Shown: positions 1,215 through 56,565 of the stretch, piece by piece
How positions within the stretch are numbered: the first letter of the stretch is position 1
How the letters are laid out: every line of letters starts with the position of its first letter
From: Hyphomicrobiales bacterium
Lineage (GTDB): Bacteria; Pseudomonadota; Alphaproteobacteria; Rhizobiales; Xanthobacteraceae
Length of the DNA: 64,000 nucleotides
Direction: 5' to 3'
Assembly: GCA_017305715.1 (NCBI GenBank)
Contig: JAFKKG010000009.1
Coordinates: 124,001-188,000 of the forward strand
The notes under the pieces: model-generated
Told to the model about the DNA's origin: nothing
The model's input: the letters and a program-made list of their open reading frames with translations, nothing else
The model's database searches: none
Made by a program: the position numbers and the translations under genes

Positions 1215-1270
1215 TGTAAAATGCGATAAACTCTCGTATTAAATTGGTCAAGGCGTTTTTGGAGCGGCGG

Positions 1271-1915
1271 ATGGCAGCGAAGCAGAAAACCGGAACGGAG
1301 AAGGCTCCAGCGCTGGCGCGGCTGGTTCCGACACAACAGCGCAGCCGCGAGCGGTTCGAGCGCATCCTTGGAACGGCGGCCGAAATCATGGCCGAGAAGG
1401 GCAGCGAGGCGTTCCGGATGAGCGACATCGTCGCGCGCACCGGCGTCGCCTTTGGCTCGCTCTATCAATATTTTCCGGACAAGACCGCGATCATCGGCAC
1501 GCTGGCGGAGCGCTACAATGCGGTCGGCCGCGAATGCGTCCGGCGCGATCTGGCCGCGGTGAAGACCGCGCGGGATCTGCATCCGGCGCTCTGCCGCATC
1601 GTCGACAGCTACTACCGGATGTTCAACGACGAACCGGTCATGCGCGACATCTGGCAGGCGACCCAGGCCGACCGGAGCCTGCAAAAACTCGATGAAGAGG
1701 ACGGCGCCTATCTCGCCGGCCTGCTCCACGAGGCGTTACGGCGAATTGCGCCGAATGCGCCCTCACCCGCGCTGGCGTCGTTCTCGCAACTGATCATGAC
1801 GCTGATCGCGGCCACCGTGCGCCACGCGATCGCGCTGGAGCCAAAGGAAGCCGCGCGAATGCTGGCGCTGTTCAAGCGGATGCTGCCGAAGAATCTGGCG
1901 GCGCTGGAGATTTGA
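1271..1915 (+). CDS. TetR/AcrR family transcriptional regulator
   Basis: 214 residues from the ATG at 1271, which has GGAG at 1261-1264. A TTG at 1244 would add nine residues and is less likely. The N-terminal helix-turn-helix is clear: RERFERILGTAAEIMAEKG, then FRMSDIVARTGVAFGSLYQYF, the diagnostic recognition-helix block ending in LYQYFPDK. The C-terminal half is helical and presumably binds a small ligand. Divergent orientation to the DUF1772 membrane-protein gene, with a palindrome between them, suggests a local repressor. The ligand is unknown. Confidence 0.9.
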   Translation: MAAKQKTGTEKAPALARLVPTQQRSRERFERILGTAAEIMAEKGSEAFRMSDIVARTGVAFGSLYQYFPDKTAIIGTLAERYNAVGRECVRRDLAAVKTARDLHPALCRIVDSYYRMFNDEPVMRDIWQATQADRSLQKLDEEDGAYLAGLLHEALRRIAPNAPSPALASFSQLIMTLIAATVRHAIALEPKEAARMLALFKRMLPKNLAALEI

Positions 1916-2119: not shown

Positions 2120-5100
2120 ATGCAACGCCATTTCGATTTGATCATAACCGCCGATCCCGTCGACTTTTCAGCCCAATTCCGTCTGCAAGATCAGACGGGC
2201 GCTCAACTGGCCTATCGATTCACTTCTTTCAAATCCATCACATTGTCCCGTCAATTGGGCCTTTTTGACCTGCGGAACTTCCTCCGGAATTTCGTGGAGC
2301 CGGAGAAGGAGACCGAAGCTATCGCCGAGATCGGCGTTTGCATTGCCGAGGAGGTGCTCGGCAAGGAGATTTTTCTCAAACTGTGGGAGGGCCAGTCCCA
2401 ACGCACACTCCGCATTCATCTCCCCGCAGGCGAGTCGGATGACAATCTGCTGGCGACCGCGCTCGCGCGCGTGCCGTGGGAGATCGCGCGGCCGTCTTTC
2501 ACCCAGCCCACCCTGGAGGAGCGCTTTCTCGTCGTCCGTATTGTCAGCGACAATGCCCGGGTCACCGATCAACCGCCGGCGCCGGAAAAGCACGAGAGTC
2601 TTCGCGTGCTGTTCGTATTTGCTGAAACAAAGGACTCGCCTCCTCTGGGCATACGGCGAGAACGACGCCAGTTGCTCAATCTATTCGAGCGGGAAATCTA
2701 CCCGACGCGCCGGGTGATCGCTCACGTCCTGTCGAATGGCGTCACGCGCGAGCGTCTGCGCGCGCAGATCCAGGAGAACGGCGGCTACCATATCGTGCAC
2801 TGGAGCGGCCACGGCGCCATGAACGCCCTCGAGCTCGCAAGGGCCGACGGCCTGTCGGATGACCTCAGCGGAAAGGACCTGATCGATTTTTTCCACGAAG
2901 CCGGGACATTCCTTCCGCGCCTTGTGTACCTGAGCGCCTGCAACTCCGGCGAGATCGCAGAAATCAGGAACTGGAACGATTTTCTGGCCGTCGCCAGGCA
3001 TGATCAATCCGGAAGCCCAGACAAGACCCTTGCGCCGACGGCCACCCGGGACATCCCGATCAAGCAGGAGCCCGGCTATGCCGGCATCGCCCTGACCCTG
3101 CTGATGGACGGAGTGCCGTCCGTGGTCGCGATGCGTTACTCGGTCGGCGACGACTACGCCCGCGAGCTGGGTATCGAATTTTATCGGCTCTTGCTGGCCC
3201 ACGCACAGCCAAAGCCCGTGGCGAGCGCGCTGGCGATGGCGCGGCGCGCGATCCGCAATCCGAACCAGCATCAGCAGGCCCAGTTCGCGGCGTGCGATCA
3301 TGCGACCCCCGTGCTCTACGGCGCCGAGCAACCCGGACTGCCCTTGATCAACGGCAGAAGCGACGGCCTCGTCGTCCGGCGTCTGCGGCTGCATCAGATC
3401 GCGGAACTGACCGTGGCGGAACATGCGCATTTCGTCGGCCGCGCATGGCAATTGGCCGGGCTTGGCGCCAGCTTCGTGGGGGCGAGTTATAGCGTCGATG
3501 CCAAACCGGTCGCCGTGATCACCGGGCTTGGCGGAATGGGGAAAACGGCGCTTGCAGCCGAAGCGCTTGCGCTGTGGGAGGACCGCTTCAAATGGGTGTT
3601 GCTGTACCAGGCAAAGCCCGGCGCGCTCCCGTTCGAGGCGTTTCTGACCGATATTCACACCAAGCTCATGACAGAACTCGGCCGCTACCACCAACACGTG
3701 GCGTCCAATCCGGCTGACGTCATATTTGCGCTCGCGAACGGGGAGTTCACCGGTCCGCCAAGACAACAGCGGTTGATCGAAAATCTCGTTCGCGCGCTCA
3801 AGGACGAGGCTATTTTGCTCGTGCTCGACAATTTCGAGACCAATCTGAAGCCGATCCCGGAGCCCGGCCAACCCGCGGGCGAGCCGGTATGGGCCTGCCA
3901 GGACCCGGTATGGGACGACTGCCTGAAAAGCCTGGCCGAGAATTTGGTCGGCGGGCCTTCAAGGGTGCTCATCACCTGTCGCCGGCCGCTTGCAGCATTG
4001 CGCGGGGCGCCGGTTCACTCCGTGCAACTCGGACCGCTGCCGCCCAACGAGGCCGCGTTGTATTTGCGTGAACACCGGGGATTGAACGCGATGATCTTCG
4101 GCGGAGATGCGGCCGAGCGCGCGCTCGCCATCCGGTTGCTGACGGCCTCGCGGTTTCATCCCTTGCTGATGGACCATCTGGCGCGGCTGGCCGTTGCGGG
4201 CCAGCCCCTCCGGCCTCAGCTCCTGCAAGCGCTCGAACTCCTCGAGCAGAGCGGCGACCTGTCGCAGCTCCCCGCGCTCTTCGATGCCGGTCACGAGAAC
4301 GCCAGCGAGCTCGCCTACCTCAATGACGCGCTGGTCGTCTCGATCGATGTGCTCATTGAAAGCGCCGCTCCGGCAGCCCGCCGGCTGCTGTGGATTGTCG
4401 CGTTGGCCGATGATCCCGCCACCCTGAGACTGGTGGGAAGCGTATGGACGGTGTGTTTCAAAAACCAGAAAACACTTCCGGCAGGTCGGGATCTGACGCC
4501 GTATTTCAGTCATCTGCTGTCTGTGGGCCTCGCGATTTTGGAGCGAAGCCGTCCCGACGACGACAACCCGAACGTCACCTGCCACGAACTGGTACGCGAG
4601 CGTATTCGCGCCTGGATGACGGCACATCCGGCCGATCGATTGGACTGCACGGAGAACCAGATCCTCGTCGCCTACGCCGAACGGATGGAGGCGGCTTTCC
4701 GGGGGCTGCGGCAGACCGACACGACGGCCGCCCTCGAAGCCGGCCGGCGGGCGATTACCTATTACGTCACAGCCCATGCGTTCGATCGTTTGAGCAATCT
4801 GGCCGGCAACGTCGTCATCGGCGCGAGCGATCCGCAACTCCTGACCAGGCTGCTCCCGCACCTGCAATCCGCCGTCCATGCGGTTCCTCCGGGCCAGGGC
4901 CAATGGCGCTGCCTGCTGGCGCTGGCCGACGCCATGGACAATTCCGGCGGACATCGGGAGAGCCTGCCGTTCTATGAGGAGAGTGCGGTGCTCGCAAAGA
5001 GCGTTGCCGAAGGTGGTAGCGCAGACGCACCAGCGGCCTGGATGGACTACGCCACGGCGGTTGGCAATTGGGCGATCGCCCTGCAAAACCTCGGTGAATA

Positions 5101-6046
5101 CGACGCATCGTTTCGCCTGCTCGTCGAAAGAGTGGAGACCCTGACGAAGCTGGATGCGCCGGCGGTCAGTATTGTCAGCAGCGAGTTGGAGGTGATGCAT
5201 CTCGTTGTCAAACAGGGCGGGGCAGAACAAGTGCTTCCCGAAATCGAGAAGCGGGTCGCCATCATGGAGGAATGGCGGCGGCGCATCGGCCTCGGCGAAC
5301 GACTGATCGAAGTGCCCTTCCCCGAACAGTTCAATCATCTTTTTCTCAGCGCACTGACGACGAGCCGCAACGCGTGGTCTGAAACAGAGAATTGGGAAGC
5401 CGCGCTGCGACGAACCGACCAGATGCTGGAACTACGGCGGCTGTTGAAACACCCGGTCGAACAAATCGCGATGGACGAGAGCAACCGGGCGATCTTTCTC
5501 GTCCAGTTGAAGCGTTTTCACGAGGCAAAACCCGTGCTCGAAAAGTGCCTGCGGGTTTTCCAGAATAGTCCGGAGAATTTGGCGAAGACCTATCACACGC
5601 TGGCCGACATGATGTCCGAGCAGGACGATGTTGCCCAAGCCGTGATTCAGGAACGCCGTGCGCTCGCGATATTCAACGCGTTGCCAAATCCAGACGATCG
5701 CTGCGCCTGCCACTATAGTATTTCGAACTATCTTCACCGGCTTGACGGGACGGCGTTGGCCGAAGCGGCCAGCCATCGGATCGCAGCGCTCACATATGCC
5801 TTCGCCACAGGCTTGCCGCGGAGAATTGAAATGCTCACGGCCGGCTACGCCATCGACATCAGGGAAAAACGAGTCGAACTCCCCAATGTGTCGCTGTCGG
5901 AGGTTCTCGCCCAGCCGGCGTTCGCCGCGCTTGGCCAATGGCTCGGGCAAAAGCATCCTGCGCGCGATGAATTGCAGGCGCAGATCGATCAATATCTGGA
6001 GGCATGCAGGCAATTCCGTGCCAGCCAGGAAGCGCAACAGGGGTGA
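2120..6046 (+). CDS. CHAT protease - STAND NTPase - TPR protein (1308 aa)
   Basis: Start taken at the ATG 2120, with GAGAG about 10 nt upstream; a GTG at 2105 would add five residues. Domains in order: a ~150-residue N-terminal region; a CHAT caspase-like protease with the catalytic His in VHWSGHG (H227, H231) and Cys in LSACNSGE (C274); a STAND/NB-ARC-like ATPase with P-loop GLGGMGKT (469-476), Walker B LLVLDNFE (D570) and a LITCRRPL sensor block; a helical region; and a TPR-like C-terminal third (from about residue 900). Key catalytic residues are all present, so it looks active. CHAT and STAND architectures are known in bacterial NLR-like immunity and in TPR-CHAT effectors. The gene stands alone, so the protease target and trigger are unknown. 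Defence or programmed death is an inference. Confidence 0.85.
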   Translation: MQRHFDLIITADPVDFSAQFRLQDQTGAQLAYRFTSFKSITLSRQLGLFDLRNFLRNFVEPEKETEAIAEIGVCIAEEVLGKEIFLKLWEGQSQRTLRIHLPAGESDDNLLATALARVPWEIARPSFTQPTLEERFLVVRIVSDNARVTDQPPAPEKHESLRVLFVFAETKDSPPLGIRRERRQLLNLFEREIYPTRRVIAHVLSNGVTRERLRAQIQENGGYHIVHWSGHGAMNALELARADGLSDDLSGKDLIDFFHEAGTFLPRLVYLSACNSGEIAEIRNWNDFLAVARHDQSGSPDKTLAPTATRDIPIKQEPGYAGIALTLLMDGVPSVVAMRYSVGDDYARELGIEFYRLLLAHAQPKPVASALAMARRAIRNPNQHQQAQFAACDHATPVLYGAEQPGLPLINGRSDGLVVRRLRLHQIAELTVAEHAHFVGRAWQLAGLGASFVGASYSVDAKPVAVITGLGGMGKTALAAEALALWEDRFKWVLLYQAKPGALPFEAFLTDIHTKLMTELGRYHQHVASNPADVIFALANGEFTGPPRQQRLIENLVRALKDEAILLVLDNFETNLKPIPEPGQPAGEPVWACQDPVWDDCLKSLAENLVGGPSRVLITCRRPLAALRGAPVHSVQLGPLPPNEAALYLREHRGLNAMIFGGDAAERALAIRLLTASRFHPLLMDHLARLAVAGQPLRPQLLQALELLEQSGDLSQLPALFDAGHENASELAYLNDALVVSIDVLIESAAPAARRLLWIVALADDPATLRLVGSVWTVCFKNQKTLPAGRDLTPYFSHLLSVGLAILERSRPDDDNPNVTCHELVRERIRAWMTAHPADRLDCTENQILVAYAERMEAAFRGLRQTDTTAALEAGRRAITYYVTAHAFDRLSNLAGNVVIGASDPQLLTRLLPHLQSAVHAVPPGQGQWRCLLALADAMDNSGGHRESLPFYEESAVLAKSVAEGGSADAPAAWMDYATAVGNWAIALQNLGEYDASFRLLVERVETLTKLDAPAVSIVSSELEVMHLVVKQGGAEQVLPEIEKRVAIMEEWRRRIGLGERLIEVPFPEQFNHLFLSALTTSRNAWSETENWEAALRRTDQMLELRRLLKHPVEQIAMDESNRAIFLVQLKRFHEAKPVLEKCLRVFQNSPENLAKTYHTLADMMSEQDDVAQAVIQERRALAIFNALPNPDDRCACHYSISNYLHRLDGTALAEAASHRIAALTYAFATGLPRRIEMLTAGYAIDIREKRVELPNVSLSEVLAQPAFAALGQWLGQKHPARDELQAQIDQYLEACRQFRASQEAQQG

Positions 6047-6071
6047 AAGTCCGGGACCGCCCCCTCGCCGC

Positions 6072-6326
6072 TTACCGCTCGAACACCGCCGCGCATGCCG
6101 GGCTCAAGTTCGCCTTCTGCCGGCGCAGGCAGGCAGTGATGGCGCGGGCATTGGGGATTTCGCCGGCGCACAGCCGGTAGACATCGGGCGTGCAGGCCCT
6201 GCGCTGCTCGGGCGTGCCCTGCGCGGCCGCCGACCCGCCGGCGGCCAATGCGAGGAAGAGCCCGAGTGTCGAGCCCCACCGGATGTGGCCCGGCAGCGTC
6301 GCGATTCGAAGCAAGTGCGATTTCAT
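6072..6326 (-). CDS. Small secreted cysteine-containing protein
   Basis: 84 residues. A hydrophobic stretch (residues 16-36) ending in SAAAQ looks like a signal peptide. The mature part carries four cysteines in the pattern CTPDVYRLC...ACLRRQK...PAC, resembling short Cys-repeat proteins common in Bradyrhizobium and relatives (ACTPDV.RLC..EIP). It is probably periplasmic with two disulfides. A GGAGACGC ribosome-binding site precedes the ATG at 6326. The function is unknown. It converges on the end of the CHAT gene with only 25 bp between them. Confidence 0.7.
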   Translation of the reverse strand: MKSHLLRIATLPGHIRWGSTLGLFLALAAGGSAAAQGTPEQRRACTPDVYRLCAGEIPNARAITACLRRQKANLSPACAAVFER

Positions 6327-6580
6327 GACTGCGTCTCCGTGATCGGGCCCGGCCTTGACAGCGCGGGCGACATCGGAGCGAATACGCGGAATAATTTTCG
6401 CGAAATGTGATTTTTCTCACATTTGGCGCGGGGCGCGCGGGTCTACCGTGCATCCCGGGGAAATCAATACTTTACTAACCACATTTGCCGCGGTTGCCGG
6501 ATCGATAAAATTCGATCGATCCAGTCAATCCGAACACAAAGCCGTTTTGGGATCGTGGGCTCCGAAACCCGGAGAGCGCG

Positions 6581-6832: not shown

Positions 6833-6906
6833 TGGAGGCCACGACCAGAATTGAACTGGTGTACACGGTTTTGCAGACCGTTGCGTAACCACTCCGCCAC
6901 GTGGCC
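6833..6906 (-). tRNA. tRNA-Cys (GCA)
   Basis: On the minus strand the acceptor GGCCACG (complement of 6900-6906) pairs with CGTGGCC, followed by discriminator T and an encoded CCA (6833-6835). The anticodon loop is CTGCAAA, giving GCA. The T-arm reads CCAG-TTCAATT-CTGG. The length is 74 nt and all four arms fold. Confidence 0.93.
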
Positions 6907-7343: not shown

Positions 7344-9032
7344 ATGTTCGAATGGCTGGCTGGAACGCTGCGTGCATATCCCGAACTGGCAATTTTTGCT
7401 GCGCTTGCGGTCGGATTTTGGATTGGCCCCAAGAAGATCGGTGGTTTTAGTCTCGGCAACGTCACGGCCACGCTTCTGGCGGCCGTCGTGATCGGTCAAC
7501 TGACGATCGCCATCTCGCCGAACGTCAAATCCGTCTTCTTCCTTCTATTCCTGTTTGCTGTTGGCTACGGCGTCGGACCCCAGTTTTTCCAGGGCTTGGC
7601 GAAAGAAGGTCCGAGGCAGATCGCGTTTGCCGTCATCGTCCTGGCTTTCTGTCTTGTCGTCCCGTTGATTTGCGCAAAGTTTGCCGGTCTCGACCTCGGA
7701 TATGCGACCGGTCTGTATGCGGGCTCGCAGACGATCTCAGCCTCGATCGGCGTTGCCACCGATCAGATCATGCGGCTGGGGCTGTCGCCGGATCAGGCAA
7801 AGACCTTCGTCGATAAAATTCCGATTGGTTACGCAGTCACCTACATCTTCGGCACCATTGGGTCGGCGATCGTGCTTGCCAAACTCGGTCCTTGGCTCAT
7901 CGGAGTCGACCTTCCGAAGGCTTGTGCAGAATATGAAAAGCAAATGGGCGCTGGCGGCTCAGCCGAGTCGACGCTGTCAGCACGTCGCAACTGGGAGATG
8001 CGCGCCTATGTGCTCGAAGCCGGCACGCCGGCAATTGGCAAGACGGTTGAGGAAGCGGAAGCAAATGCAAAAAATGGGCGCTTTCTGATCGAGCGGGTCC
8101 GCCGCGGCCATATGATTCTTGAAGCGACGCCCGATCTTGTTTTGGCAGCCGCCGATGTCGTTGCGATCGCTGCCCGGCGCGATCTGCTGGTCGAACTGCT
8201 CAGTGGCCATGCAAAGGAAGTTGATGACCGCGAGTTGCTCGATGTGCCGGTTGAGGTTGCGGACGTCTTCATCACCAATAAGGCGTACGCGGGCCGGAAG
8301 CTTGCCGAATTCGCCCACAGCCCCTTCGCGCACTCCGTATTTCTGCGCAGGATCATGCGACACATGGTTGAAATCCCGATCCTGCCGGAGACGGTAATTC
8401 AACGCGGTGACATCCTGACGCTGGTTGGAACAAAGGCCGGTATCGATCTCGCCGCACAACACCTTGGCTATGCCGACCGCGCGGTCGAGGCCACCGACAT
8501 CGCGTTCTTGGGCGCGGGTGTCTTGCTCGGCGGTCTGGTCGGTGCGTTGAGCTACAATGCCGGCGGCATTCCGATCAGCCTTTCGACGAGTGGCGGCGCG
8601 CTGCTGGCGGGCCTGATCCTCGGCTGGCTGCGCACCATCCATCCGACCTTCGGGCGCATTCCGGGTCCGGCGCTCGCGCTGATGAATACGCTGGGTCTCA
8701 ACGTTTTCATTGCGGTGGTCGGGATTTCATCCGGGCCGGGCTTCGTCTCCGGCCTTAAGGAGGTCGGCGTCAGCCTGTTCCTGTGGGGCATTGTCGCCAC
8801 CACTTTACCGTTGATCATCGCGGTTTATGTAGGCCACTACGTCTTTAAATTTCATCCTGCGATCCTGTTCGGCGCATGCGCCGGGGTTCGCACCACGACC
8901 GCGGCCCTTGGCATGATCCAAGAAGCGGCTAAGAGCAAAGTGCCGGCGCTTGGTTATGGCATGCCCTACGCGATCGGCAACACCCTGCTGACAATCTTTG
9001 GAATGGTGATCGTGCTGCTGATGGCACATTGA
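7344..9032 (+). CDS. aspT: Aspartate:alanine exchanger family transporter (AspT/YidE type)
   Basis: 562 residues from an ATG with a strong GGAGGG site (7331-7336). The architecture is that of the AAE family: an N-terminal membrane half (about residues 10-185, including LFLFAVGYGVGPQF and GLYAGSQTISASIG), two central cytoplasmic TrkA-C/RCK-like segments (about 205-375) and a C-terminal membrane half repeating the motif (GISSGPGFVSGL; FGACAGVRTTTAALG). AspT exchanges aspartate for alanine electrogenically. The aspartate 4-decarboxylase gene 57 bp downstream supports this substrate pair: decarboxylation consumes a proton inside the cell, and exchange builds membrane potential. This assignment rests on family and context. 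Confidence 0.85.
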   Translation: MFEWLAGTLRAYPELAIFAALAVGFWIGPKKIGGFSLGNVTATLLAAVVIGQLTIAISPNVKSVFFLLFLFAVGYGVGPQFFQGLAKEGPRQIAFAVIVLAFCLVVPLICAKFAGLDLGYATGLYAGSQTISASIGVATDQIMRLGLSPDQAKTFVDKIPIGYAVTYIFGTIGSAIVLAKLGPWLIGVDLPKACAEYEKQMGAGGSAESTLSARRNWEMRAYVLEAGTPAIGKTVEEAEANAKNGRFLIERVRRGHMILEATPDLVLAAADVVAIAARRDLLVELLSGHAKEVDDRELLDVPVEVADVFITNKAYAGRKLAEFAHSPFAHSVFLRRIMRHMVEIPILPETVIQRGDILTLVGTKAGIDLAAQHLGYADRAVEATDIAFLGAGVLLGGLVGALSYNAGGIPISLSTSGGALLAGLILGWLRTIHPTFGRIPGPALALMNTLGLNVFIAVVGISSGPGFVSGLKEVGVSLFLWGIVATTLPLIIAVYVGHYVFKFHPAILFGACAGVRTTTAALGMIQEAAKSKVPALGYGMPYAIGNTLLTIFGMVIVLLMAH

Positions 9033-9089
9033 GTTCGATCCACGTCTAAAAGCCGCATCCGCGTCTTGAGCGATCATGGGAGACAGGTC

Positions 9090-10700
9090 ATGAGCATCAC
9101 AGACTATACTCCGTACGAGAACATGAGTCCGTTTGAGATCAAGGACGGGCTGATCAAGCTCGCCAAGCGCAACGCTGCCAAGGGCGCCCACGCCTTTCTC
9201 AACGCCGGCCGCGGCAACCCCAATTGGATCGCGACCGCGCCGCGAGAGGCTTTCTTCCTGTTTGGTCAGTTCGCGCTCACGGAAGCGCGCCGCGCGATGG
9301 ACAATCCGGTCGCCGGGCTGGCGGGTATGCCGCAACCTGGCGGTATCGCGGCTCGTCTGTCCGCATGGCTGGAGAAACATGCGGACGCAGAAGGGGCGAC
9401 GTTTATCGGTAACGCAGTCGCCTACGGTACAAAGACGCTTGGCTTTGACCCCGACGCCTTTGTTCACGAACTCACGGACTCGATCATCGGCGATAATTAT
9501 CCCGTCCCCGATCGCATGCTGGTCCATGCGGAGAAGGCCGTCCATCAGTACCTGATGTGGGCGATGTGTGGTGACAAGCCGCCAAAGGGACAGTTTCAGC
9601 TTTATGCAGTCGAGGGCGGCACCGCCGCCATGTGTTATATTTTCAAATCGCTAATGGCCAACCGCATCCTGAAAAAGGGCGACACCATCGCGATCGGTAC
9701 TCCGATCTTTACGCCTTACATCGAAATCGCCGAGCTCGAGGACTACGCTCTCAAGAGCGTTCACGTCAGGGCGACTGAAGAAAACAAATTCCAGTATTCG
9801 GATGACGAGTTGAAGAAGCTCGAAGACCCTGCCGTCAAATCATTCTTCGTCTGCAACCCCGGAAATCCGACCTCGATGGCGATGGACGCCGGGACCCGCC
9901 GGAAGCTTGTCGATCTCGTAAAGAAGAAGCGACCGGACCTCATTGTGCTCACCGACGACGTCTACGGGACGTTTGTCCCCGGCTTCCGCTCTCTGATGGC
10001 GGAGCTGCCTCACAATACGATCGGGGTCTACTCCTTTTCGAAATACTTCGGATGCACCGGCTGGCGACTCGGCGTCATTGCCCTGCATGAAAAGCATATC
10101 CTCGATGAACTGATAGCGAAGCTTCCTGAAAAGGAATTGAAGGCATTAGACAAGCGGTACGGCTCAATCACCTTGAAGCCCCGCGAGCTCAAGATGATCG
10201 ACCGGCTTGTCGCCGACAGCCGCGACGTTGCACTCAACCACACGGCCGGGCTCTCGCTGCCTCAACAGGTGATGATGACGTTGTTCTCGCTGGGCGAGTT
10301 GATGGACACGGAAAAGGTCTATCAAAAGGCCTGCATCGATATCTGCCGGCAGCGGACGCACCGACTGCTGGAGGGGCTGCCCCTCAATGTAAAGCCGAAC
10401 GAAAACTTCGCCCGCTATTACGGCACGATCGACTTCGAGTTCTGGCTGCGCAAATATGCCGGAGAAGAGATGGTCGAATGGCTGAAGAAAAATGTTCACC
10501 CGCTTGATCTGGTTCGGAAGCTTGCCGAAGATCACGCCATCGTTCTTCTCAACGGTGGCGGATTTGATGCTCCCAATTGGAGCGTACGCGTATCGTTCGC
10601 CAATCTGCCGGACGATTCATATGAAGATATCGGCCGCGCTGTACGCGCTGTGGCGCGTGGGTACTTTGAGACGTTCAAGGCAAAAAAGACGAAGGCTTAG
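9090..10700 (+). CDS. aspD: Aspartate 4-decarboxylase (bifunctional with aspartate aminotransferase activity)
   Basis: 536 residues from the ATG at 9090, preceded by GGGAGACAGG; an in-frame TTG at 9066 is rejected. A PLP-dependent fold-type I enzyme converting L-aspartate to L-alanine plus CO2. The Schiff-base lysine is in YSFSKYFGCTGWRLGV. The substrate-binding block VCNPGNPTSM and the PLP-binding acidic block LTDDVYGTF are present. Its length (about 535) and the N-terminal extension LNAGRGNPNW fit the large AspD subgroup rather than ordinary aminotransferases of about 400 residues. It is probably cotranscribed with aspT. Confidence 0.92.
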   Translation: MSITDYTPYENMSPFEIKDGLIKLAKRNAAKGAHAFLNAGRGNPNWIATAPREAFFLFGQFALTEARRAMDNPVAGLAGMPQPGGIAARLSAWLEKHADAEGATFIGNAVAYGTKTLGFDPDAFVHELTDSIIGDNYPVPDRMLVHAEKAVHQYLMWAMCGDKPPKGQFQLYAVEGGTAAMCYIFKSLMANRILKKGDTIAIGTPIFTPYIEIAELEDYALKSVHVRATEENKFQYSDDELKKLEDPAVKSFFVCNPGNPTSMAMDAGTRRKLVDLVKKKRPDLIVLTDDVYGTFVPGFRSLMAELPHNTIGVYSFSKYFGCTGWRLGVIALHEKHILDELIAKLPEKELKALDKRYGSITLKPRELKMIDRLVADSRDVALNHTAGLSLPQQVMMTLFSLGELMDTEKVYQKACIDICRQRTHRLLEGLPLNVKPNENFARYYGTIDFEFWLRKYAGEEMVEWLKKNVHPLDLVRKLAEDHAIVLLNGGGFDAPNWSVRVSFANLPDDSYEDIGRAVRAVARGYFETFKAKKTKA

Positions 10701-10800
10701 GCTGTCAGAAGTTTGCGGAGGAACCGCCGGGGTTCCCAAGCGGTGCGGCTGCCAGGTTCGCGTTTGGGCCCCCATTCGCCTTGCTCACGCCGCGAGAAAC

Positions 10801-10816
10801 GGCCAGGAAACTGGCC
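10801..10816. other. Perfect hairpin with GAAA tetraloop
   Basis: GGCCAG-GAAA-CTGGCC: a six-base stem closed by a GNRA-type tetraloop, in the gap between aspD and the small zinc-ribbon gene and 76 bases before the latter's start. There is no T-tract, so it is not an ordinary terminator. It may stabilise the aspD transcript end or act in the leader of the small gene. Confidence 0.4.
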
Positions 10817-10892
10817 CCGAATCTGCATGGCTGACATTTTGCCGTATGACTACGGATTATCAGTGCGTGTTACAGCCGGCATATACCCGTAC

Positions 10893-11027
10893 ATGCCATA
10901 TCAACAAGACCGCCCCCTGTGCCCGAAATGCGGGATGCGCATGATGATGACCGCGCGTAAGCCAAACGGAAACGTTGCCTTTGAATGCCTTCGCTGCGGT
11001 CATACTGAAACGCGTAGCCAGGAATAA
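10893..11027 (+). CDS. Small zinc-ribbon protein (44 aa)
   Basis: From the ATG at 10893 the product is a compact zinc ribbon: CPKCGMRM, then a 15-residue strand-turn, then CLRCGHTE, giving two CxxC knuckles. An in-frame ATG at 10827 would add 22 residues without family resemblance. Short zinc ribbons of this form occur widely in rhizobia with unknown function, possibly binding nucleic acid or protein. It is followed by a terminator-like hairpin. Confidence 0.65.
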   Translation: MPYQQDRPLCPKCGMRMMMTARKPNGNVAFECLRCGHTETRSQE

Positions 11028-11047
11028 AGTTGACGCCACGCCCTTGA

Positions 11048-11067
11048 GGCCGCCAACTGAGGCGGCC
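11048..11067. terminator. Terminator-like hairpin between convergent genes
   Basis: GGCCGCC-aactga-GGCGGCC: a 7-bp GC stem between the zinc-ribbon gene (plus) and the SGNH hydrolase (minus). It lacks a long T-tract on either side, so efficiency is doubtful. Confidence 0.45.
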
Positions 11068-11123
11068 CTTGAACCGTGCGCGCAATGAGAAGTCGGAGCT
11101 GTGTTCTCAGTCGGAACGGTCGG

Positions 11124-12092
11124 CTACGGCGCCGGTTTTGCTCCGATCACGCCGTTCGCGGACAACAGGCCAAGCAATCGCTCGGCGACGAGTTTGTGGC
11201 CCTCGGGCGTCCAGTGGCCGCCAAGCGACGCGCCCGGATAGGCGGCCGCGCCATCGAAGCTGACAAAGGCAATCCGTGCGGCCTCAAGGTGCCGGATCAG
11301 CGCGGCATCGTCGGCCTGCAGACCGACGAAAAACTTGCCACCGTTCGTCTCCACAAACCGCCTGATCTCATCGACGAGTTTTTCGGTCGGGTCCGGCACG
11401 TGCACCACCGGATGCCGCAGCTTCAGATAAACCGCGTTGCCGAGCCGAACCAGCCAGGAATGGCGCACCCACCAATCCTCCTTGATGGCCTGCAGGCGTG
11501 ACTTGGCGACGGGTTGTCCCTGCAACACCAGCGATCCGTCCGCCGATGTCGCAAAATACGGCTTCTGGTAGCCTTCGTAGCGGATGCTGCTGCTGTTATC
11601 CTCGCGGTCGTTGTTGGTGCAGAAAATCAGCACGACGATGGCGGGTTTCACCTTCGGCCATAGTCTTTGCAGCAGGAGGTATTCCTGATCCGTGCCGAAG
11701 CCGGAAACCCCTGCCGCCAAAATCCGGTAGTCCGGAATGCGCGGTTTCAAGAGCTCCGAAAAGCGCTCGCCGGCCTCGGCATCGAGGCCCCAGACAAAGG
11801 AATCGCCGAGAAACATGATGGTCGGTCTCGCGTCGGGAACGAACTCCTCGTCGCGCAGGCCGAGGCTGTTGTGGCGGGCATGGATGGTGCGGGCGTTGGT
11901 GACGGTCGAACTCGACCCGGGTATCGGCATCCAGCCGAGCTCGGAATCGTACTGGTAGCTGAGCGAACGCTCGCTGACGCCCTCGCGCAATTCGCGCAGA
12001 TCGACAACGCGGAGAACGACTTCCAGCGCGGCGAGCGTCACGATCGTCATGACCGCGATGGCGCCCAGCGATTGCAGCGTTTTGCGAGCCAT
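11124..12092 (-). CDS. SGNH/GDSL-family hydrolase, membrane-anchored
   Basis: 322 residues. An N-terminal hydrophobic helix (about 8-28) is likely a signal anchor. Catalytic blocks: FLGDSFVWG (nucleophile Ser), AAGVSGFGTDQ (block II Gly), FCTNNDRED (block III Asn) and a late HWTPEGH with the catalytic His. The family includes acyl esterases and acetyl transferases acting on surface glycans or lipids. It is the last gene of a minus-strand set SxtJ - DUF5989 - carbamoyltransferase - this gene, with 27 bp after the carbamoyltransferase, so a shared substrate such as a carbamoylated or acylated envelope product is inferred. Confidence 0.8.
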   Translation of the reverse strand: MARKTLQSLGAIAVMTIVTLAALEVVLRVVDLRELREGVSERSLSYQYDSELGWMPIPGSSSTVTNARTIHARHNSLGLRDEEFVPDARPTIMFLGDSFVWGLDAEAGERFSELLKPRIPDYRILAAGVSGFGTDQEYLLLQRLWPKVKPAIVVLIFCTNNDREDNSSSIRYEGYQKPYFATSADGSLVLQGQPVAKSRLQAIKEDWWVRHSWLVRLGNAVYLKLRHPVVHVPDPTEKLVDEIRRFVETNGGKFFVGLQADDAALIRHLEAARIAFVSFDGAAAYPGASLGGHWTPEGHKLVAERLLGLLSANGVIGAKPAP

Positions 12093-15438: not shown

Positions 15439-18400
15439 TTATTCCGCGGGCGCCTGGATCGCGGCCCGCTCTTCCCGGCGTCGCCGCAACCGGTCGATCA
15501 GCAGGTAAATCACCGGCGTCGTGTACAGCGTCAGGATCTGGGACACGAACAACCCGCCGATGATGGTGATGCCGAGCGGCCGGCGCAGCTCGGTGCCGGG
15601 GCCGGTGGCGATGACCAGGGGAATGCCGGCGAACAGGGCCGCCATCGTCGTCATCAGAATGGGGCGGAACCGGGCCGAGCAGGCCTCGAAGATCGCATCC
15701 GCCGACGACAGGCCGCGATTGCGTTCGGCGTCGAGCGCGAAATCCACCATCATGATGCCGTTCTTCTTGACGATGCCGATCAACAGAATGATGCCGACAA
15801 AGGCGATCACGGTCAGCGGCGTGTTGGTCACCTGCAGCGCCAGCAGCGCGCCGAGCCCCGCCGACGGCAGCGTCGAGATGATGGTCAGGGGATGCGCCAG
15901 GCTCTCATAGAGCACGCCCAGCACGATATACATCGCCACCAGCGCGCCGAGGATCAGCAGCGGCTGCCGGCCGCTGGTCTTGTTGAAATCGCCGGCGCTG
16001 CCGTCGAAACTGCCGCGGATGCCCTCCGGCATGTGCAGCTCATCGACCGCGCGCTGGATGTTGGTGGTCGCGACCTCCAGCGGCACGTTGGGCATCAGGT
16101 TGAACGACACCGTGGTCGAGGGGAACGACTGCGAATGATAGACCGCCAGCGGCGACAGGCCACGCTGGTAGCGCACCACGGCCGACAGCGGAACCTGGGC
16201 GTCGCCCGCGCCGGCGACGAAGATGCGTTCGAGGTTCGACGGATCGCTCTGGAACCTGGGATCGATCTCCAGCACCACCATGTACTGGTTGCGCTGGGTA
16301 TAGACGATCGAAATCTGGCGCTGCGCGAATGCGTTGTTGAGGGCATTGTCGATGTCCTGGACGCGGACGCCGAGGCTGGAGGCGGTCTTGCGGTCGATCA
16401 CCAGCGACAATTGCAGTCCGCCGGGATCGCGGTCACTGGACACGTCGGTGATGCCCTCGACGGTCTCCATGCGCTTGCCGACCAGCGGCGCCCATTTCTG
16501 CAGCAGATCGAGATCGGTGCTCGACAGCGTGTATTGATAGTCCGAATCGCTCTGCCGTCCGCCGGTCCGCAGATCCTGGGCGGCGAACATGAACAGGCGG
16601 ATGCCGGCGACGCGATAGAGCGCCCGGCGCAAGCGATCGATCACCTGCGCGGTGGACTCCCCTGCCCGCTCCTCCGGCGGCTTCAGACTGATGAACATGG
16701 TGCCGCGGTTGGAGCCGCCGCCGCCTGGGCCGCCGCCGCTGCCGAGCGAAGAGCCGATCCCGGCGACCGCGGGGTCGGCCATCACGATATCGGCCAGCTG
16801 CTGCTGCAGGCCGAGCATCGCCTGGAACGAGATATCGGGGGACGCGCGGGTGGAGCCGATCACGAAGCCAGAGTCGTCGGTCGGGAAATAGCCCTTCGGC
16901 GTCTTGATGTAGAGCGTCACGGTGAGCGCGATGGTGGCAAAGAACACGATCAGGGTGAGGTATGGAAACTCCAGCACCCGCCGCAGCGTCCAGGTGTAGA
17001 ACGACACGATCCGCGACAGCGTGCCCTCGACCAGCCGGTCGAACCAGGTGGCACGATCGGACGTCGCCTCCTTGATGAAGTGCGCGCAGATCATCGGCGT
17101 GACGGTGAGCGAAACCACGGTCGACACCACGATGGCAAAGGTCAATGTCAGCGAGAATTCGCGCAGCAATCGCCCGACGATCCCGTCCATGAAGATCAAG
17201 GGCGTAAAGGCGGCGATCAGCGATAGGCTGATCGACAGCACGGTAAAGCCGATCTGCTTGGCGCCTTCGAGGGCGGCGGCGAGCGGCGCCATGCCGGCTT
17301 CGAGATTGCGGTACATGTTCTCGATCATCACGATGGCGTCGTCGACCACGAAGCCGACGGAAATCGCCAGCGCCATCAGCGACAGATTGTCGATTGAGAA
17401 GCCGGCGAGCCACATCCCGGCGCAGGTGCCGGCCAGCGCCAGCGGCACCGAGACGCCGGCGGCAATCGTCGGCGTCAGCCGCCGCAGGAACGCGAATACC
17501 ACCACCATGACCAGGAACGCGGTCGCCAGCAGCGTATATTGCATGTCGAGCACGCTGGCGCGGATGGTGCCGGTGCGGTCGACCAGCGTCGAAATCTCGA
17601 CGCCGCCCGGCAGCCATTGCTTCAGTTCCGGCAGCAGCGCCCTCACCCGGTCGACGGTGTCGATGACGTTGGCGTCGCCCTGCTTGGTGATCTGGATCAA
17701 AACCGCCGGCTGCTTGTTGAACCAGGCGATCGAGCGGCTGTTGCGGACGGAATCCTCGACTTCAGCCACATCCGAGAGGCGGACGTAATTGTTGCCCGAA
17801 CTCTTGACGATGATGTCGCGGAATTCGGCCGCGGTGCGCATCTGCCTGTTGGTCGAGATCGTCTCGCTCTGGCGGCCGCCATTGAAGATCCCGACCGGGC
17901 CGAGCGGGTTGGAATTGATGATCGCGAGCCGGACGTCGTCGGTGGCGATGCCCGCATTGGACAAGGAGACCGGGTTGAGCGCGATCCGCACCGCGGGCTG
18001 GTCCGCGCCGCTGACGGTGACCTCGCCGACACCAGGGACCTGCGAAATGCGCTGGGCGATCACGGTATCGGCGACGTCATACATCGCGCTGGTGGTCAGC
18101 GTCTTCGAGGTCAGCGCCAGCACGAACACCGGGGCCGCCGCCGGATTGGCCTTGCGGAACCTCGGCAATGACGGCAAGTCGCTCGGCAAATCCGCCAGCG
18201 AGGCATTGATCGCGGCCTGCACGTCGCGCGCGGCGCGGTCGATGTTGCGGCCGATCGAGAATTGCAACTGGATGCTGGTGGTGCCGAGCGAACTCGTCGA
18301 TGTGATCTGGTCGACGCCGGAAATCTGGCCGAGCCGCCGCTCCAGCGGCGCTGCCACCGTCGATGCCATCACCGAAGGGTCGGCCCCCGGGCGGCTGGCG

Positions 18401-18546
18401 GACACCCGGATCATCGGAAAGTCGACATTGGGAACCGCCGACACCGGCAGGAACGTGTAGGCGACGCAACCGACCAGAAAGAGCCCGATCGCCAGCAGCG
18501 TGGTGCCCACCGGCCTGCGGATGAAGGGCTCCGAGATCGATGCCAT
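15439..18546 (-). CDS. mdtC: RND multidrug efflux permease (MdtC-like)
   Basis: 1035 residues, the usual length of HAE-1 RND pumps. The N-terminal FIRRPVGTTLLAIGLFLVG helix, the GFVVDDAIVMIENMYRNLE signature in TM4 with the proton-relay Asp pair, and LGALVAMYIVLGVLYES before TM8 are all present. Its ATG shares one base with the TAA of the upstream pump gene. Two consecutive RND genes after one fusion protein is the MdtABC arrangement, in which the pumps form a heterotrimer. Substrates are unknown; bile-salt or plant-compound efflux is typical. Confidence 0.88.
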   Translation of the reverse strand: MASISEPFIRRPVGTTLLAIGLFLVGCVAYTFLPVSAVPNVDFPMIRVSASRPGADPSVMASTVAAPLERRLGQISGVDQITSTSSLGTTSIQLQFSIGRNIDRAARDVQAAINASLADLPSDLPSLPRFRKANPAAAPVFVLALTSKTLTTSAMYDVADTVIAQRISQVPGVGEVTVSGADQPAVRIALNPVSLSNAGIATDDVRLAIINSNPLGPVGIFNGGRQSETISTNRQMRTAAEFRDIIVKSSGNNYVRLSDVAEVEDSVRNSRSIAWFNKQPAVLIQITKQGDANVIDTVDRVRALLPELKQWLPGGVEISTLVDRTGTIRASVLDMQYTLLATAFLVMVVVFAFLRRLTPTIAAGVSVPLALAGTCAGMWLAGFSIDNLSLMALAISVGFVVDDAIVMIENMYRNLEAGMAPLAAALEGAKQIGFTVLSISLSLIAAFTPLIFMDGIVGRLLREFSLTLTFAIVVSTVVSLTVTPMICAHFIKEATSDRATWFDRLVEGTLSRIVSFYTWTLRRVLEFPYLTLIVFFATIALTVTLYIKTPKGYFPTDDSGFVIGSTRASPDISFQAMLGLQQQLADIVMADPAVAGIGSSLGSGGGPGGGGSNRGTMFISLKPPEERAGESTAQVIDRLRRALYRVAGIRLFMFAAQDLRTGGRQSDSDYQYTLSSTDLDLLQKWAPLVGKRMETVEGITDVSSDRDPGGLQLSLVIDRKTASSLGVRVQDIDNALNNAFAQRQISIVYTQRNQYMVVLEIDPRFQSDPSNLERIFVAGAGDAQVPLSAVVRYQRGLSPLAVYHSQSFPSTTVSFNLMPNVPLEVATTNIQRAVDELHMPEGIRGSFDGSAGDFNKTSGRQPLLILGALVAMYIVLGVLYESLAHPLTIISTLPSAGLGALLALQVTNTPLTVIAFVGIILLIGIVKKNGIMMVDFALDAERNRGLSSADAIFEACSARFRPILMTTMAALFAGIPLVIATGPGTELRRPLGITIIGGLFVSQILTLYTTPVIYLLIDRLRRRREERAAIQAPAE

Positions 18547-21500
18547 TACTGCATCCCCTCGGTGGCGCCGGCGACCGGCGGCCCGGCGGGCCCGGGTTCC
18601 GGCACCGCCTTCTCGATCTTGCGGTTGAGCCGGTCGAGCGCCAGGTAGATCACGGGCGTGGTGTAGAGCGTCAGCAACTGGCTCAGCAGCAGGCCGCCGA
18701 TGATGGAGACGCCGAGCGGGAACCGCAGCTCCGCGCCGGTGCCGCTTTCCAGCGCCAGCGGCAGCGCGCCGAACAGGGCGGCCAGCGTCGTCATCATGAT
18801 CGGGCGGAAGCGCAACAGGCAGGCTTGTATGATGGCTTCGTTCGCGGACATGCCCTTGTGCCGCTCGGCCTCGAGCGCGAAGTCGATCATCATGATCGCG
18901 TTCTTCTTGACGATGCCCATCAAGAGGATGATGCCGATCAGGCCGATGACCGACAGGTCCTGCCCGCAGAGCATCAGGGCCAGGATGGCGCCGATGCCGG
19001 CCGAGGGCAACGTCGACAGAATGGTGATCGGGTGGATGTAGCTCTCATAGAGCACGCCGAGCACGATGTAGATGGTGACGAGGGCGGCGAGGATCAGCCA
19101 GGGCTGGCCGGCGAGCGATTTGGCGAATTCGGCCGCGTCGCCGGCGTAAACGCCGACGATGCTACCGGGCATGCCGATCCTGCTCTCGATCGCCTTGACC
19201 GCCTCGACGGCGTCGCCGAGCGATTCGCCCGGCGCCAGATTGAAGCTGAGCGAGATGGCCGGGAATTGCGCCTGATGCGAGATCGCCAGCGGCGCGGTGG
19301 TGCGCGTCAACGTCGCAATCGCCGAGATCGGCACTTGCCCGGCCGGACTTCCCGGCGTTGCCGCGACGCCGGGCACATACAGCTTCGAGAGGATCGACGG
19401 ATCGCGCTGGTACATCGGCATGGCTTCCAGCACCACCCGATACTGGTTGGCCTGGCCGTAGATGGTCGAAATCTGCCGCTGCGCAAAGGCATCGTTCAAG
19501 GTGTCGGTGACGGTCTGCAGACTGACGCCGAGCTGGCCGGCGCGCTGGCGGTTGATGTCGAGGGCTGCGCGCAAACCGCCCTCCTGCGCCTCCGACGAGA
19601 CGTCGCGAAACAAGGGATCCCGGCGCATCTCGGCTACCAGCCTGGTAGCCCACTTCGTCACCTCGGCCGATTCCGTGCCGGTCAGCGTGTACTGGTATTG
19701 CGAGCGGCTCGACTGCGTCGATATCTGCACGTCCTGCACCGGCTGGAAATAGATGGTCATGCCGGGGATCGACGCGGTGCGCTGCTTCAACCGCACGATG
19801 ACCGCCGAAACGTCGTCACGCCGCTCGCCGCGCGGCTTGAGCGTCATCACCAGACGCCCGACATTGGTGGTCGGATTGACCGAGCCCGCACCGATCACGG
19901 ACACCACGCCGACCACGTCGGGATCGGCCTGGATCGCGGTGGCCGCCGCCATCTGCCGGCTCTGCATCTCCGCAAACGAAACGTCGGGACCGGCCTCGGT
20001 CACCGCCGTGATCGAGCCGGTGTCCTGCAGCGGCAAAAATCCCTTCGGCGCGAGCACATACAGGACAAGCGTCGCGACAATGGTGAGCAGCGTGACGAAC
20101 AGCGTGGCGCGCTGGCGCTGCAGCACCCACAACAGCGTGCGGTGATAGAGTTCGACGGTACGGTCGATGAAGCGGCTGACGGCGGCAAGGCCGGGGACGG
20201 CAACTTCCTCATGGACGTTCTTGAGGAGCCGCGAACACATCATCGGGGTCAACGTCAGCGACACCACCGCCGACGTGACCACGGCAATTGTCAACGTGAG
20301 AGCAAATTCACGGAACATGCGGCCGACCAGACCGGACATGAACAGCAGCGGGATGAACACGGCGATCAGCGACACCGTCAGCGAAATCACCGTAAAACCG
20401 ATTTCGCTGGCGCCCTTCAGCGAGGCCTCCATCACGGACTCGCCGTCCTCCATGTGGCGGACGATGTTCTCGATCATCACGATGGCGTCGTCGACCACGA
20501 AGCCGGTTCCGATCGTGAGCGCCATCAGCGACAGATTGTCGAGGCTGAAGCCGGCGAAATACATGATTCCGAAGCTCGTGATCAGCGACAGCGGCAGCGC
20601 CACCCCCGCGATCAGCGTGGCGCGCAGCGAGCGCAGGAACAGCAGCACCACCAGCGTCACCAGCACCACGGCCAGGACCAGCGTGAACTGGACGTCATGG
20701 ACCGAGGCGCGGATGGTAACGGTGCGGTCGCTGACGATGGTGAGGGCGACGCCGGCCGGGATCGCGCGCTGCACTTTGGGGATTTCGGCGCGGATCTGGC
20801 GCACCACCTCGATCACATTGGCGCCGGGCTGGCGCTGGATATCGATGATGACGGCGGGCGTGCCCTGGTACCAGCCGCCGGTGCGGTCGTTCTCCAGCCC
20901 GTCGATGATGATCGCGACGTCGCCGATCGTGACCGGTGCGCCGTTGCGATAGGCGATGATGATCGGCTTATATGCCTCGGCGGCCGCGATCTGGTCGTTG
21001 GCGGCGATGGTGTAGGATTGCTGCGCGCCGTCGAGCGATCCCTTTGGGCCGGACACGTTGGCGCCGGCAATGGCGTTGCGCAAATCCTCCATCGCGATGC
21101 CGTAGGCGGCGAGCCGCGCCAGATCGGCCTGCACCCGTATCGCGGGCTTCAGCCCGCCCAATATCGCGACCCGGCCGACGCCGGAAATCTGGCTGAGCCG
21201 CTGGCCCAAAATCGTGTCGGCGATATCGCTCATCGCGCGCAGCGAAATCGTGTCCGACGTCAGCGCCAGCGTCATGACCGGCGCGTCGGCCGGGTTGACC
21301 TTGGCATAGGTCGGCGGATACGGCAGGTTCTTCGGCAGGATGCCGGCCGCCGCGTTGATCGCGGCCTGCACGTCCTGGGTGGCGCCGTCGATGTCGCGGT
21401 TGAGATCGAACTGCAACGAAATCTGGCTGACGCCGAACGAACTGGTGGATTGCATCGTCGACAGGGACGGGATCTGTCCGAGCTGACGCTCCAGCGGCGC

Positions 21501-53909: not shown

Positions 53910-54194
53910 GATGGAGCTCCTTCCGCGGACGACTGCCGCGTAAGCTGAGAAATGGGCGCGAAAAGGTGACGGACTGATGGCGGTCGAATTGGCTTGCGAA
54001 AACGTCGCATGCGGCATGGCTTGGCAGTCCACGGTCCCTGCCACGTCGGCGGGTGGCCGGCGCAGCATTCAATGATGGGCGGACGATGGCAAAGGCCCGC
54101 CGTCTGGTTTTGTCGCGGCCCAATGGAAATCGGTTCGGATCGGACTTGGCTATGAGGCGGATTTTTCATATTGGCAGTGCTAGAAGAGCCCAAC

Positions 54195-55228: not shown

Positions 55229-55400
55229 ACGTCCGAAATCCCAAAAACCGCATCAAATGTTCACGCTCGGCAATTCGAGTGCCGGACACTACAGGCACCT
55301 TTCGGGCAAAAAAAGGCTTCGCGGGCCTGATTGAACGATTAAGTCACCGTCCGAATCAGAAAACTGCCTTGTTAACAGGCACGGAAAACCCCATGACGAG

Positions 55401-55427
55401 AAAAAACCGCTGAAGGGCGGCTTTTTT
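55401..55427. terminator. Rho-independent-type terminator
   Basis: A-rich run, CCGC-TGAAGG-GCGG stem, then CTTTTTT. The A-run on one side and T-run on the other allow use in both directions. It lies in the 372-bp gap between the FecR and H-NS-like genes, both minus strand, and could terminate the latter. Confidence 0.55.
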
Positions 55428-55600
55428 GTGCGATCGAATATTGAGCTGCTCGGGCGTCGATAGCAGCGCTGGTTTCGTCACCAGGCGCCCGTCATTGGGC
55501 CGCCTCAACGACCGGGTGACGCCCAAGCCAAATGACCCGAAGAATCGCCTGCCGATACATCGGGGCCGACGTGACGAAGCCGGCTGGGGCGGCCTTTGTT

Positions 55601-55927
55601 CTATTCAGCCGCCCGCTGGATCCTGAGATCGTCCACCGCGCGACCAGAGCGAAGCTGCGACATGAACCAATGTGGCTGCCTGCCGCGCCCCGCCCACGTT
55701 TGCGACGGATCATCGGGATTTCGAAACTTCGCAAGAACCGGCGGATACGGCCGACGCTCGGACGTTCTCTCCTGATGCTTGGCTGCCGACGAAATTTTGA
55801 GTGCGGCCAGACGGCCCTCAAGCACCTTTTGTTCGGCGATCATTTTCGCTTCGAGCTTGCCCGATACTTGTTCGTAGAGCGCCCAGAGTGCATCGACGGG
55901 CAAGCCGTCAAAGCCAGATTTTTTCAT
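55601..55927 (-). CDS. H-NS family nucleoid-associated protein
   Basis: 108 residues from the ATG at 55927 (a second ATG four codons upstream is possible). An N-terminal helical oligomerisation region (ALWALYEQVSGKLEAKMIAEQKVLEGRLAAL) precedes the C-terminal DNA-binding motif: PPVLAKFRNPDDPSQTWAGRGRQPHW, matching the TWxGRGRxPxW hallmark. Such proteins bind AT-rich, often foreign DNA. Its presence inside the tRNA-bounded segment fits a resident silencer. Confidence 0.88.
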   Translation of the reverse strand: MKKSGFDGLPVDALWALYEQVSGKLEAKMIAEQKVLEGRLAALKISSAAKHQERTSERRPYPPVLAKFRNPDDPSQTWAGRGRQPHWFMSQLRSGRAVDDLRIQRAAE

Positions 55928-56535: not shown

Positions 56536-56565
56536 CCCGCATCATGCTCCAGAATCCGGACATCA

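Follow-up and report, generated by a model that had tools for sequence, protein, structure and literature searches.

We examined a single gene on contig JAFKKG010000009.1 of a Hyphomicrobiales bacterium (Xanthobacteraceae), lying in a stretch of 64,000 nucleotides (hereafter the window), whose product, P0001, joins a caspase-like protease of the CHAT family, a nucleotide-binding switch and a repeat sensor in one chain. The analysis established that this gene is a clean one-gene insertion, and that part of its protein family has a partner gene for an alpha/beta hydrolase of the DUF900 family, which the window copy lacks. On balance we lean towards the view that the gene encodes a protease built like an NLR (nucleotide-binding leucine-rich-repeat receptor), that its paired relatives would cut and free a DUF900 lipase, and that the window copy is partnerless.

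The gene, its protein and its insertion site

The frame holds 1308 open codons; an open reading frame (ORF) caller favours a GTG at 2105, and homologue alignments begin at the ATG at 2120, the start given in Table 1. Pfam profiles recover, in order along the chain, CHAT (PF12770; residues 113-385, 70.6 bits against a cut-off of 24), AAA_16 (residues 438-573, 35.7 against 32.6) and TPR_12 (residues 1121-1186, 37 against 30.1); the NACHT profile stays under its cut-off (15.7 against 26.7 bits), and NB-ARC (PF00931) has no listed match in P0001 but does exceed the threshold in one relative, L030 (25.8 against 23.5). The predicted structure has a predicted local distance difference test score (pLDDT) of 83.1 and a predicted template modelling score (pTM) of 0.84, and fold searches relate the protease part of the model to the separase/Csx29-like fold and the switch part to NB-ARC/CED-4 folds; a sequence search of the PDB with P0001 gave a best E-value of 0.32. 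Profiles and model together show an NLR-like protein in which a caspase-like protease that appears intact is joined to a predicted NB-ARC switch of the CED-4/APAF-1 type and a TPR-like sensor.

Since the dyad, the P-loop and Walker B are kept across the 33 aligned family rows, this pattern of motifs is not due to chance. The Cys274 column holds 30 cysteines, one serine and two gaps, and the serine, the sole loss of the dyad, lies in a fragment. The sequence HELVRER in the winged-helix domain is what we take to be the NLR 'MHD' motif. The region of P0001 least identical to its relatives (0.34) is the loop formed by residues 276-318, a possible autocleavage or gating loop. An earlier note on this DNA, made from the letters alone, had read an intact caspase-like dyad, an intact P-loop and Walker B, and a TPR-like sensor end, fused in one 1308-residue chain with the protease at the N terminus, and all of this is borne out; of the profiles it had named (CHAT, NB-ARC/NACHT and TPR), the first and last were found, and the switch was recognized by AAA_16, with NACHT below its cut-off and PF00931 not listed. 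Loss of the dyad in close relatives, which the same note had named as a sign against its view, is seen in one of 31 rows only.

The DNA surrounding the gene was set against that of 60 genomes, and twelve stretches were retrieved. Six of these (L118-L123) present an empty site, in which the end of the TetR gene (window 1906-1911) joins window 6066-6074 with 16-30 bp between. Because these empty sites align on both sides, the insert comprises about 4.15 kb and one gene. Three further stretches (L124-L126) are without both the window gene and the adjoining segment to about 6505, and in L127 and L128 the match is confined, within the retrieved stretch, to the TetR side. No exact direct repeats of at least 9 bp and no inverted repeats of at least 10 bp were found between 1891-2110 and 6031-6500. 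The base composition of the insert is unremarkable (61.9% guanine plus cytosine (GC) against 63.0% for the window), and the gene has a GC content at third codon positions (GC3) of 0.742 (second positions 0.435), within the lower part of the 0.69-0.89 range of six other window frames. P0001 was detected in one of 265 genomes of its own genus (E 1e-20) and one of 385 in a class sample (E 1e-15), while a phylum sample at E 1e-6 returned five of 398, namely its own genome and four with distant CHAT-NTPase proteins. The gene is single-copy in its own genome, where CHAT is matched at five further places: three of these matches are strong and lie in long frames that by eye look rich in TPRs, and the other two are weak, at about 27 bits. 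At the insert site of one relative (G012; L117, 2250-3321) lies about 1.07 kb with a frame that by eye resembles a short-chain dehydrogenase; the site has therefore held different cargo.

Table 1. Features of the window gene and its flanks (window coordinates; residues are those of P0001)
Feature	Position	Strand	Remarks
Single-gene insert, approximate extent, between TetR gene and next conserved segment	1916..6066	.	empty site in six relatives
Coding sequence, CHAT protease - NB-ARC/winged-helix switch - TPR sensor, 1308 aa	2120..6046	+	open frame; homologues begin at same residue
Separase/Csx29-type caspase-like protease (predicted), two subdomains, residues 1-408	2120..3343	+	
Catalytic His231 (VHWSGHG)	2810..2812	+	33/33 family rows
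Catalytic Cys274 (LSACNSG)	2939..2941	+	30/31 rows with a letter
Loop right behind catalytic Cys, residues 276-318	2945..3073	+	length varies in family; 296-314 pLDDT <50
NB-ARC ATPase and winged-helix module (predicted), residues 421-854	3380..4681	+	
P-loop GLGGMGKT, residues 469-476	3524..3547	+	Lys475 in 24/24 rows with a letter
Walker B LLVLDN, residues 566-571	3815..3832	+	Asp570 in 24/25 rows with a letter
MHD-like motif HELVRER, residues 822-828, winged-helix domain	4583..4603	+	His in 15/15 full-length rows shown
Helical/TPR repeat sensor region, residues 861-1308	4700..6043	+	TPR_12 1121-1186; mean identity to nine relatives 0.36, core 0.58
Left flank: TetR-family regulator, end of conserved left side	1244..1915	+	PF00440/PF17928; relatives align to about stop codon
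Right flank: tRNA gene	6836..6906	-	Rfam RF00005, 65 bits

The protein family and its DUF900 partner

Genome contigs were scanned with an alignment of P0001 and four distant proteins, P0001 alone as query having returned 22 pattern matches, none of them a relative. The scan yielded at least 580 stretches with 294 relatives, of which the best 80, representing 79 distinct loci, were kept, so that the size of the family is a lower bound. We define the family as the 32 frames that score at least 120 bits in BLAST, the distant CHAT-NTPase proteins reaching no more than 106 bits and fragments from the same loci scoring lower. In a phylogenetic tree of 34 rows, including five outgroup rows, a branch with support of 100/99 sets the family apart; within it are subclades of 9 rows (100/98) and 20 rows (96/96). 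P0001 falls in the latter, within a fork of 19 rows (95/91), its exact place being weakly supported (40/65) and its terminal branch long (0.65). The rows nearest to it are bins of Acidobacteriota, Planctomycetota and Methylomirabilota, and the fork also includes Pseudomonadota and Verrucomicrobiota. Because several phyla share this fork, descent of the patchy family by vertical inheritance alone appears unlikely, with the proviso that bins and paralogues can mislead such a tree.

Several family genes look interrupted or truncated (L021, L026, L029, L033, L035, L037, L043), which may reflect decay or assembly error. A 20-kb stretch of Paraliomyxa (L028) carries two members on opposite strands (7989-12062 and 18147-19814), one of them partial at the locus edge. 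In the genus of Pseudomonas brenneri (L020) the gene occurs in two of 398 genomes (E 1e-50), both already known, and no further pairs were found there. A plasmid search with P0001 returned one distant Nostoc match, and the same search with the CHAT gene of L014 returned none. A conjugative plasmid of Nostoc carneum (L002:5113-8994) encodes a distant CHAT-NTPase-TPR protein near a phage-type integrase and a transposase. The loci L010, L011 and L012 of proteobacterial genomes encode TIR-CHAT-NTPase chains, followed by repeats in L010 and L012; the TIR-like N terminus was recognized by PADLOC TIR models in L010 and by eye in the other two.

At six family loci (L013, L014, L015, L020, L021, L024) the gene is followed directly by an overlapping or abutting gene for a DUF900 hydrolase; two-gene operons of this type occur in Paucibacter sp. 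DJ2R-2 and Pseudomonas brenneri. The overlap with the CHAT stop codon is 4 bases in L013, L014 and L015 and 8 in L020 and L024 (the start of the latter being taken at 11863); in L021, where the partner start is uncertain, the genes overlap or abut. The window gene belongs to the same family as these paired CHAT genes: P0001 and the CHAT protein of L014 share 51.5% identity over residues 1-1298 and both lie inside the 19-row fork. The partner products have 405-459 residues: first a conserved helical hairpin some 55 residues long, then a variable linker, then the DUF900 (PF05990) alpha/beta hydrolase, which scores 135-145 bits in the four scanned and whose HSMGN motif is invariant in nine rows. 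In the L014 partner the linker (approximately residues 56-104) is disordered and variable, with block pLDDT values of 28-42 over residues 51-100. Twenty-seven family loci were checked for a partner, 19 of them with at least 1.3 kb downstream; besides the six direct pairs these include L037, with a truncated CHAT gene and a partner about 6 kb away. In the genome of L023 (G962) a C-terminal CHAT fragment is followed by a partner about 0.4 kb on, and in that of L026 (G965) the partner lies close to a contig start, its upstream side being unreadable.

The co-occurrence was then counted by genome. Twenty-eight genomes, standing for 29 family loci from many phyla chosen for their CHAT gene (L041, L042, L044 and L045 being left out), gave a partner match in 13 at E 1e-10 or better and in 11 at 226 bits or more. 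Among genomes sampled from the window's phylum, 49 of 265 passed the E-value threshold and one of 265 the bit-score threshold, so that the DUF900 partner is not merely common: weak relatives are widespread and strong ones rare. The difference for strong partners, 11 of 28 against one of 265, has a Fisher p of 9e-12, which is descriptive, the 265 genomes coming from one phylum. Judged by eye, several of the ten best sampled DUF900 loci (L138, L140, L141, L143, L144) encode N termini that resemble those of secreted proteins with a signal sequence or of lipoproteins, and they seem to form a separate, exported DUF900 group.

A wider link between CHAT and DUF900 emerges outside the family. The single strong match of the phylum sample (L136) has a degenerate CHAT-like N terminus that has lost the GHG motif; Pfam makes no CHAT call on it, and a two-sequence comparison finds it homologous to the CHAT part of a protein of Nostoc sp. 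HK-01 (E 3e-8). The latter, the closest plasmid DUF900 (L131:7104-9044), combines CHAT (36.3 bits against a cut-off of 24) and DUF900 in one chain, and downstream of it lie genes for VMAP-M14/VMAP-C, AAA and FGE-sulfatase proteins, a composition resembling the VMAP conflict systems described by Kaur et al. 2020 (PMC7159879), although the genes scanned at this locus yielded no vWA domain. On a plasmid of Hymenobacter sp. GOD-10R (L132:2423-7987) a TPR-CHAT gene of another architecture and a gene for a DUF900 hydrolase are neighbours in divergent orientation, with an IS1182 transposase and a gene for a serine protease in the vicinity.

The window copy is a different case. A tblastn search of the window with the partner gave no match, nor did a protein search of its own genome, for which the 49 of 265 genomes matched by the same query serve as control; PF05990 was likewise not found in the own genome, in a search in which the control genomes gave no match either. 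The earlier note's statement that there is no partner gene thus holds for the window locus and its genome and fails for the family, and its description of the protein as solitary and self-contained finds no support as a family trait, given the six paired loci and the close DUF900 relatives fused to or beside CHAT-type domains.

Elsewhere in the window, a bacterial alpha-2-macroglobulin gene adjoins one for a penicillin-binding protein whose C-terminal domain is of the PBP1C type (46591-54068, minus strand), and a segment of six kb (55229-61410) is without an ORF of 200 aa, with a PEP-CTERM-motif frame at 57307-57849 and a DUF6481 frame at 60618-61160.

Proposed mechanism and competing explanations

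The layout of the protein and its model suggest that P0001 would be latent at rest, with an ADP-bound switch restraining the protease, and would be activated by ATP. A ligand, probably a protein of an invader or some other stress signal, would bind to the repeat sensor and prompt exchange of ADP for ATP and oligomerization, whereupon clustering or allostery would open the protease and a target would be cleaved. In the paired relatives this target would most likely be the downstream DUF900 hydrolase with its hairpin and flexible linker, as gene overlap, protein layout and the recurrent association with CHAT suggest. A cut in the linker would free a lipase or esterase, for which the hydrolase family suggests a cell-damaging action: the membrane lipids of the cell itself would be harmed and growth would stop before the invader spreads. 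The window copy, which looks like one half of an uncharacterized two-gene alarm system, would have lost its partner or arrived without one; the substrate of its protease would then be a different protein of the host or the invader, or the protease itself, unless the gene is drifting towards disuse. An immune or cell-death function for the family is argued by analogy. The NLR-like immunity proposed in the earlier note gains from the architecture, the one-gene insertion and the patchy cross-phylum family, and finds no backing in defence context.

Several observations weigh against this reading. Activity, cleavage and trigger are predicted only, for every member, and the window gene has no downstream DUF900 partner. 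Neither was a partner found at 12 of the 19 readable loci (L017, L019, L025, L027, L028, L029, L030, L032, L033, L035, L038, L043), so that the pair is not universal; the CHAT gene is interrupted or partial in five of these (L029, L033, L035, L038, L043), and intact partnerless members occur in the same subclade (L017, L019, L025) and in the sister subclade (L027, L028, L030, L032). Two of the 11 strong partner matches (L111 and L112, from the Thiodictyon genomes of L016 and L019) have N termini other than the hairpin, and three of the five plasmid DUF900 matches inspected (of 437 records) are without an adjacent CHAT, the other two being CHAT-linked. The partner model is weak (pLDDT 63.6), and its fold search found nothing in the PDB at E 1e-3 or better. 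Phage records gave no match to the window protein, nor did viral contigs, searched with patterns from P0001 alone that reach close relatives only. PADLOC-DB 2.0.0 returned no family for the window protein at E up to 1 and no match for two CHAT-DUF900 pairs. Placement in a defence island gained no support either: among 81 neighbour ORFs of relatives (hand-picked after simple ORF calling, most from 141 listed, partner genes and syntenic L024 neighbours left out) 217 PADLOC and 206 Pfam families were matched, each in at most two of the 81, and the PADLOC models shown were mostly of kinase and TnpB/Cas12f types. Thus the context scan suggested in the earlier note brought out no recurrent defence neighbours; the homologues lie in varied contexts, so the confinement to non-mobile housekeeping surroundings that it had set against itself was not seen. 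Its claim that the candidate is undescribed accords with the lack of a PADLOC match and with the only NCBIfam match of the window protein, HetF, at 20 bits against a cut-off of 1200; NCBIfam also showed nothing near cut-off for two CHAT-DUF900 pairs and L030.

It is conceivable that P0001 acts as a complete defence module in a single gene, the CHAT-NLR alone cleaving many proteins or an essential host protein. Such a module would explain an insert of one gene with intact catalytic motifs and no partner match in its own genome, as well as L017, L019 and L025, which have no local partner (a genome-wide search at E 1e-10 was negative for L017 and L025, whereas for L019 it revealed one match of 226 bits away from the locus). 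We nonetheless consider it unlikely: the partner stands directly downstream at six family loci, the closest outside DUF900 proteins are CHAT-linked, and the proteolytic systems used for comparison employ, as far as these sources describe them, a dedicated substrate (PMC12881547, PMC9729208, PMC12799240).

The partner may also have been lost or left behind on transfer, leaving a gene in decay that has no current role. The long terminal branch, the uniqueness of the gene among 265 genus genomes and the several interrupted-looking copies elsewhere in the family are all compatible with this, as is the sensor: when ten intact proteins of the larger subclade are compared, mean sensor identity is lowest in P0001 (0.359), and in no other does it fall so far below that of the core (by 0.224, against 0.072-0.182 in the rest). 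This divergence may be decay, and it fits a sensor re-targeted to a new trigger and, equally, constraint relaxed after partner loss, the data not separating the two. A frame of 1308 codons with intact catalytic and switch motifs and a coding-type contrast between third and second positions speaks against degeneration, and we regard a gene without function as improbable.

A further alternative makes the DUF900 gene a parallel second effector or an inhibitor within the operon, with the CHAT-NLR cleaving something else everywhere. Co-occurrence does not show cleavage, and the single chain of CHAT and DUF900 in Nostoc sp. HK-01, like the CHAT-like part without GHG fused in L136, would suit such an arrangement; yet a hairpin, a disordered variable linker and a conserved hydrolase form the layout expected of a cleavable pro-enzyme, and we doubt this alternative. 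CHAT domains are also known from housekeeping roles. A regulated protease of normal cell life, acting in development or in envelope or transcription control like separase or HetF, would accord with these roles, the weak HetF match and the lack of recurrent defence neighbours, but is a poor candidate for a gene that is absent from 264 of 265 genus genomes, patchy across phyla and inserted between conserved genes, with a fast sensor and a related CHAT-DUF900 module in a VMAP-type locus.

Returning to the receptor protease with a DUF900 target, a bolder version can be put forward tentatively, as something that may be so but that we would not count on. Here, in a bacterial immune pathway, a receptor resembling the apoptosome and equipped with a caspase-like protease would cut and unleash a DUF900 lipase that destroys the membrane of the infected cell, in a lipase-based analogue of gasdermin pyroptosis. 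The CHAT-DUF900 module would be reused by fusion in VMAP-type loci, and orphan receptors, the window copy among them, would have been rewired to a new trigger and substrate. Such a pathway is absent from the open-licence papers searched, and no open-licence PMC paper was found that holds both DUF900 and CHAT. In one bacterial chain, a switch and a protease that animals keep apart are joined, and some relatives point to a concrete candidate substrate, the DUF900 hydrolase; if true, this would provide a role for part of the DUF900 family.

Comparison with known systems

In animals the alarm is split, CED-4 and APAF-1 being the switch and CED-3 and caspase-9 the protease. Unlike these and the APAF-1 apoptosome, the window protein has protease and switch in one chain, its protease belongs to the separase/CHAT branch, and TPRs take the place of WD40 repeats. 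In Craspase (type III-E CRISPR), an RNA-guided effector switches Csx29, which is not known to have an NB-ARC domain; its CHAT follows the repeats, whereas the protease of the window protein is N-terminal to switch and sensor. As described in PMC9729208, Csx29 and Csx30 offer a precedent for a CHAT protease with another effector.

With the antiviral STAND proteins Avs and bNACHT, as portrayed in PMC10907252, P0001 shares a tripartite chain of effector, STAND module and repeat sensor; it departs from them in its effector, in having no PADLOC match and in a switch that matches NB-ARC/CED-4 folds, with NACHT under its cut-off. The canu system (CanABC) and the pairs of protease and pro-nuclease use a caspase-like or trypsin-like protease to activate a pro-enzyme encoded beside it, according to PMC12799240, the main text of which mentions neither CHAT nor lipase. 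There the effector is an MBL-fold nuclease and CanA is MALT1-like, unlike the DUF900 hydrolase of the relatives described here.

CHAT-NLRs and a TPR-CHAT protease of fungi (Podospora and others) are reported to control gasdermins, and the former resemble the present family in that CHAT stands at the N terminus of an NLR chain and the effector is encoded next to it (PMC12881547, PMC9815663). The fungal systems are eukaryotic and act through a pore-forming gasdermin, whereas some relatives of P0001 have a DUF900 alpha/beta hydrolase and the window copy is without an effector gene. Among bacteria, the distant CHAT-NTPase proteins, which score below the family, also differ around the dyad (VHFDGHG, LNAC). 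By alignment, the cyanobacterial CHAT-NTPase-TPR and proteobacterial TIR-CHAT-NTPase-TPR proteins nevertheless have the same domain order as the window protein, the Nostoc protein P0002 aligning over residues 118-757 with 25% identity and 72.8 bits.

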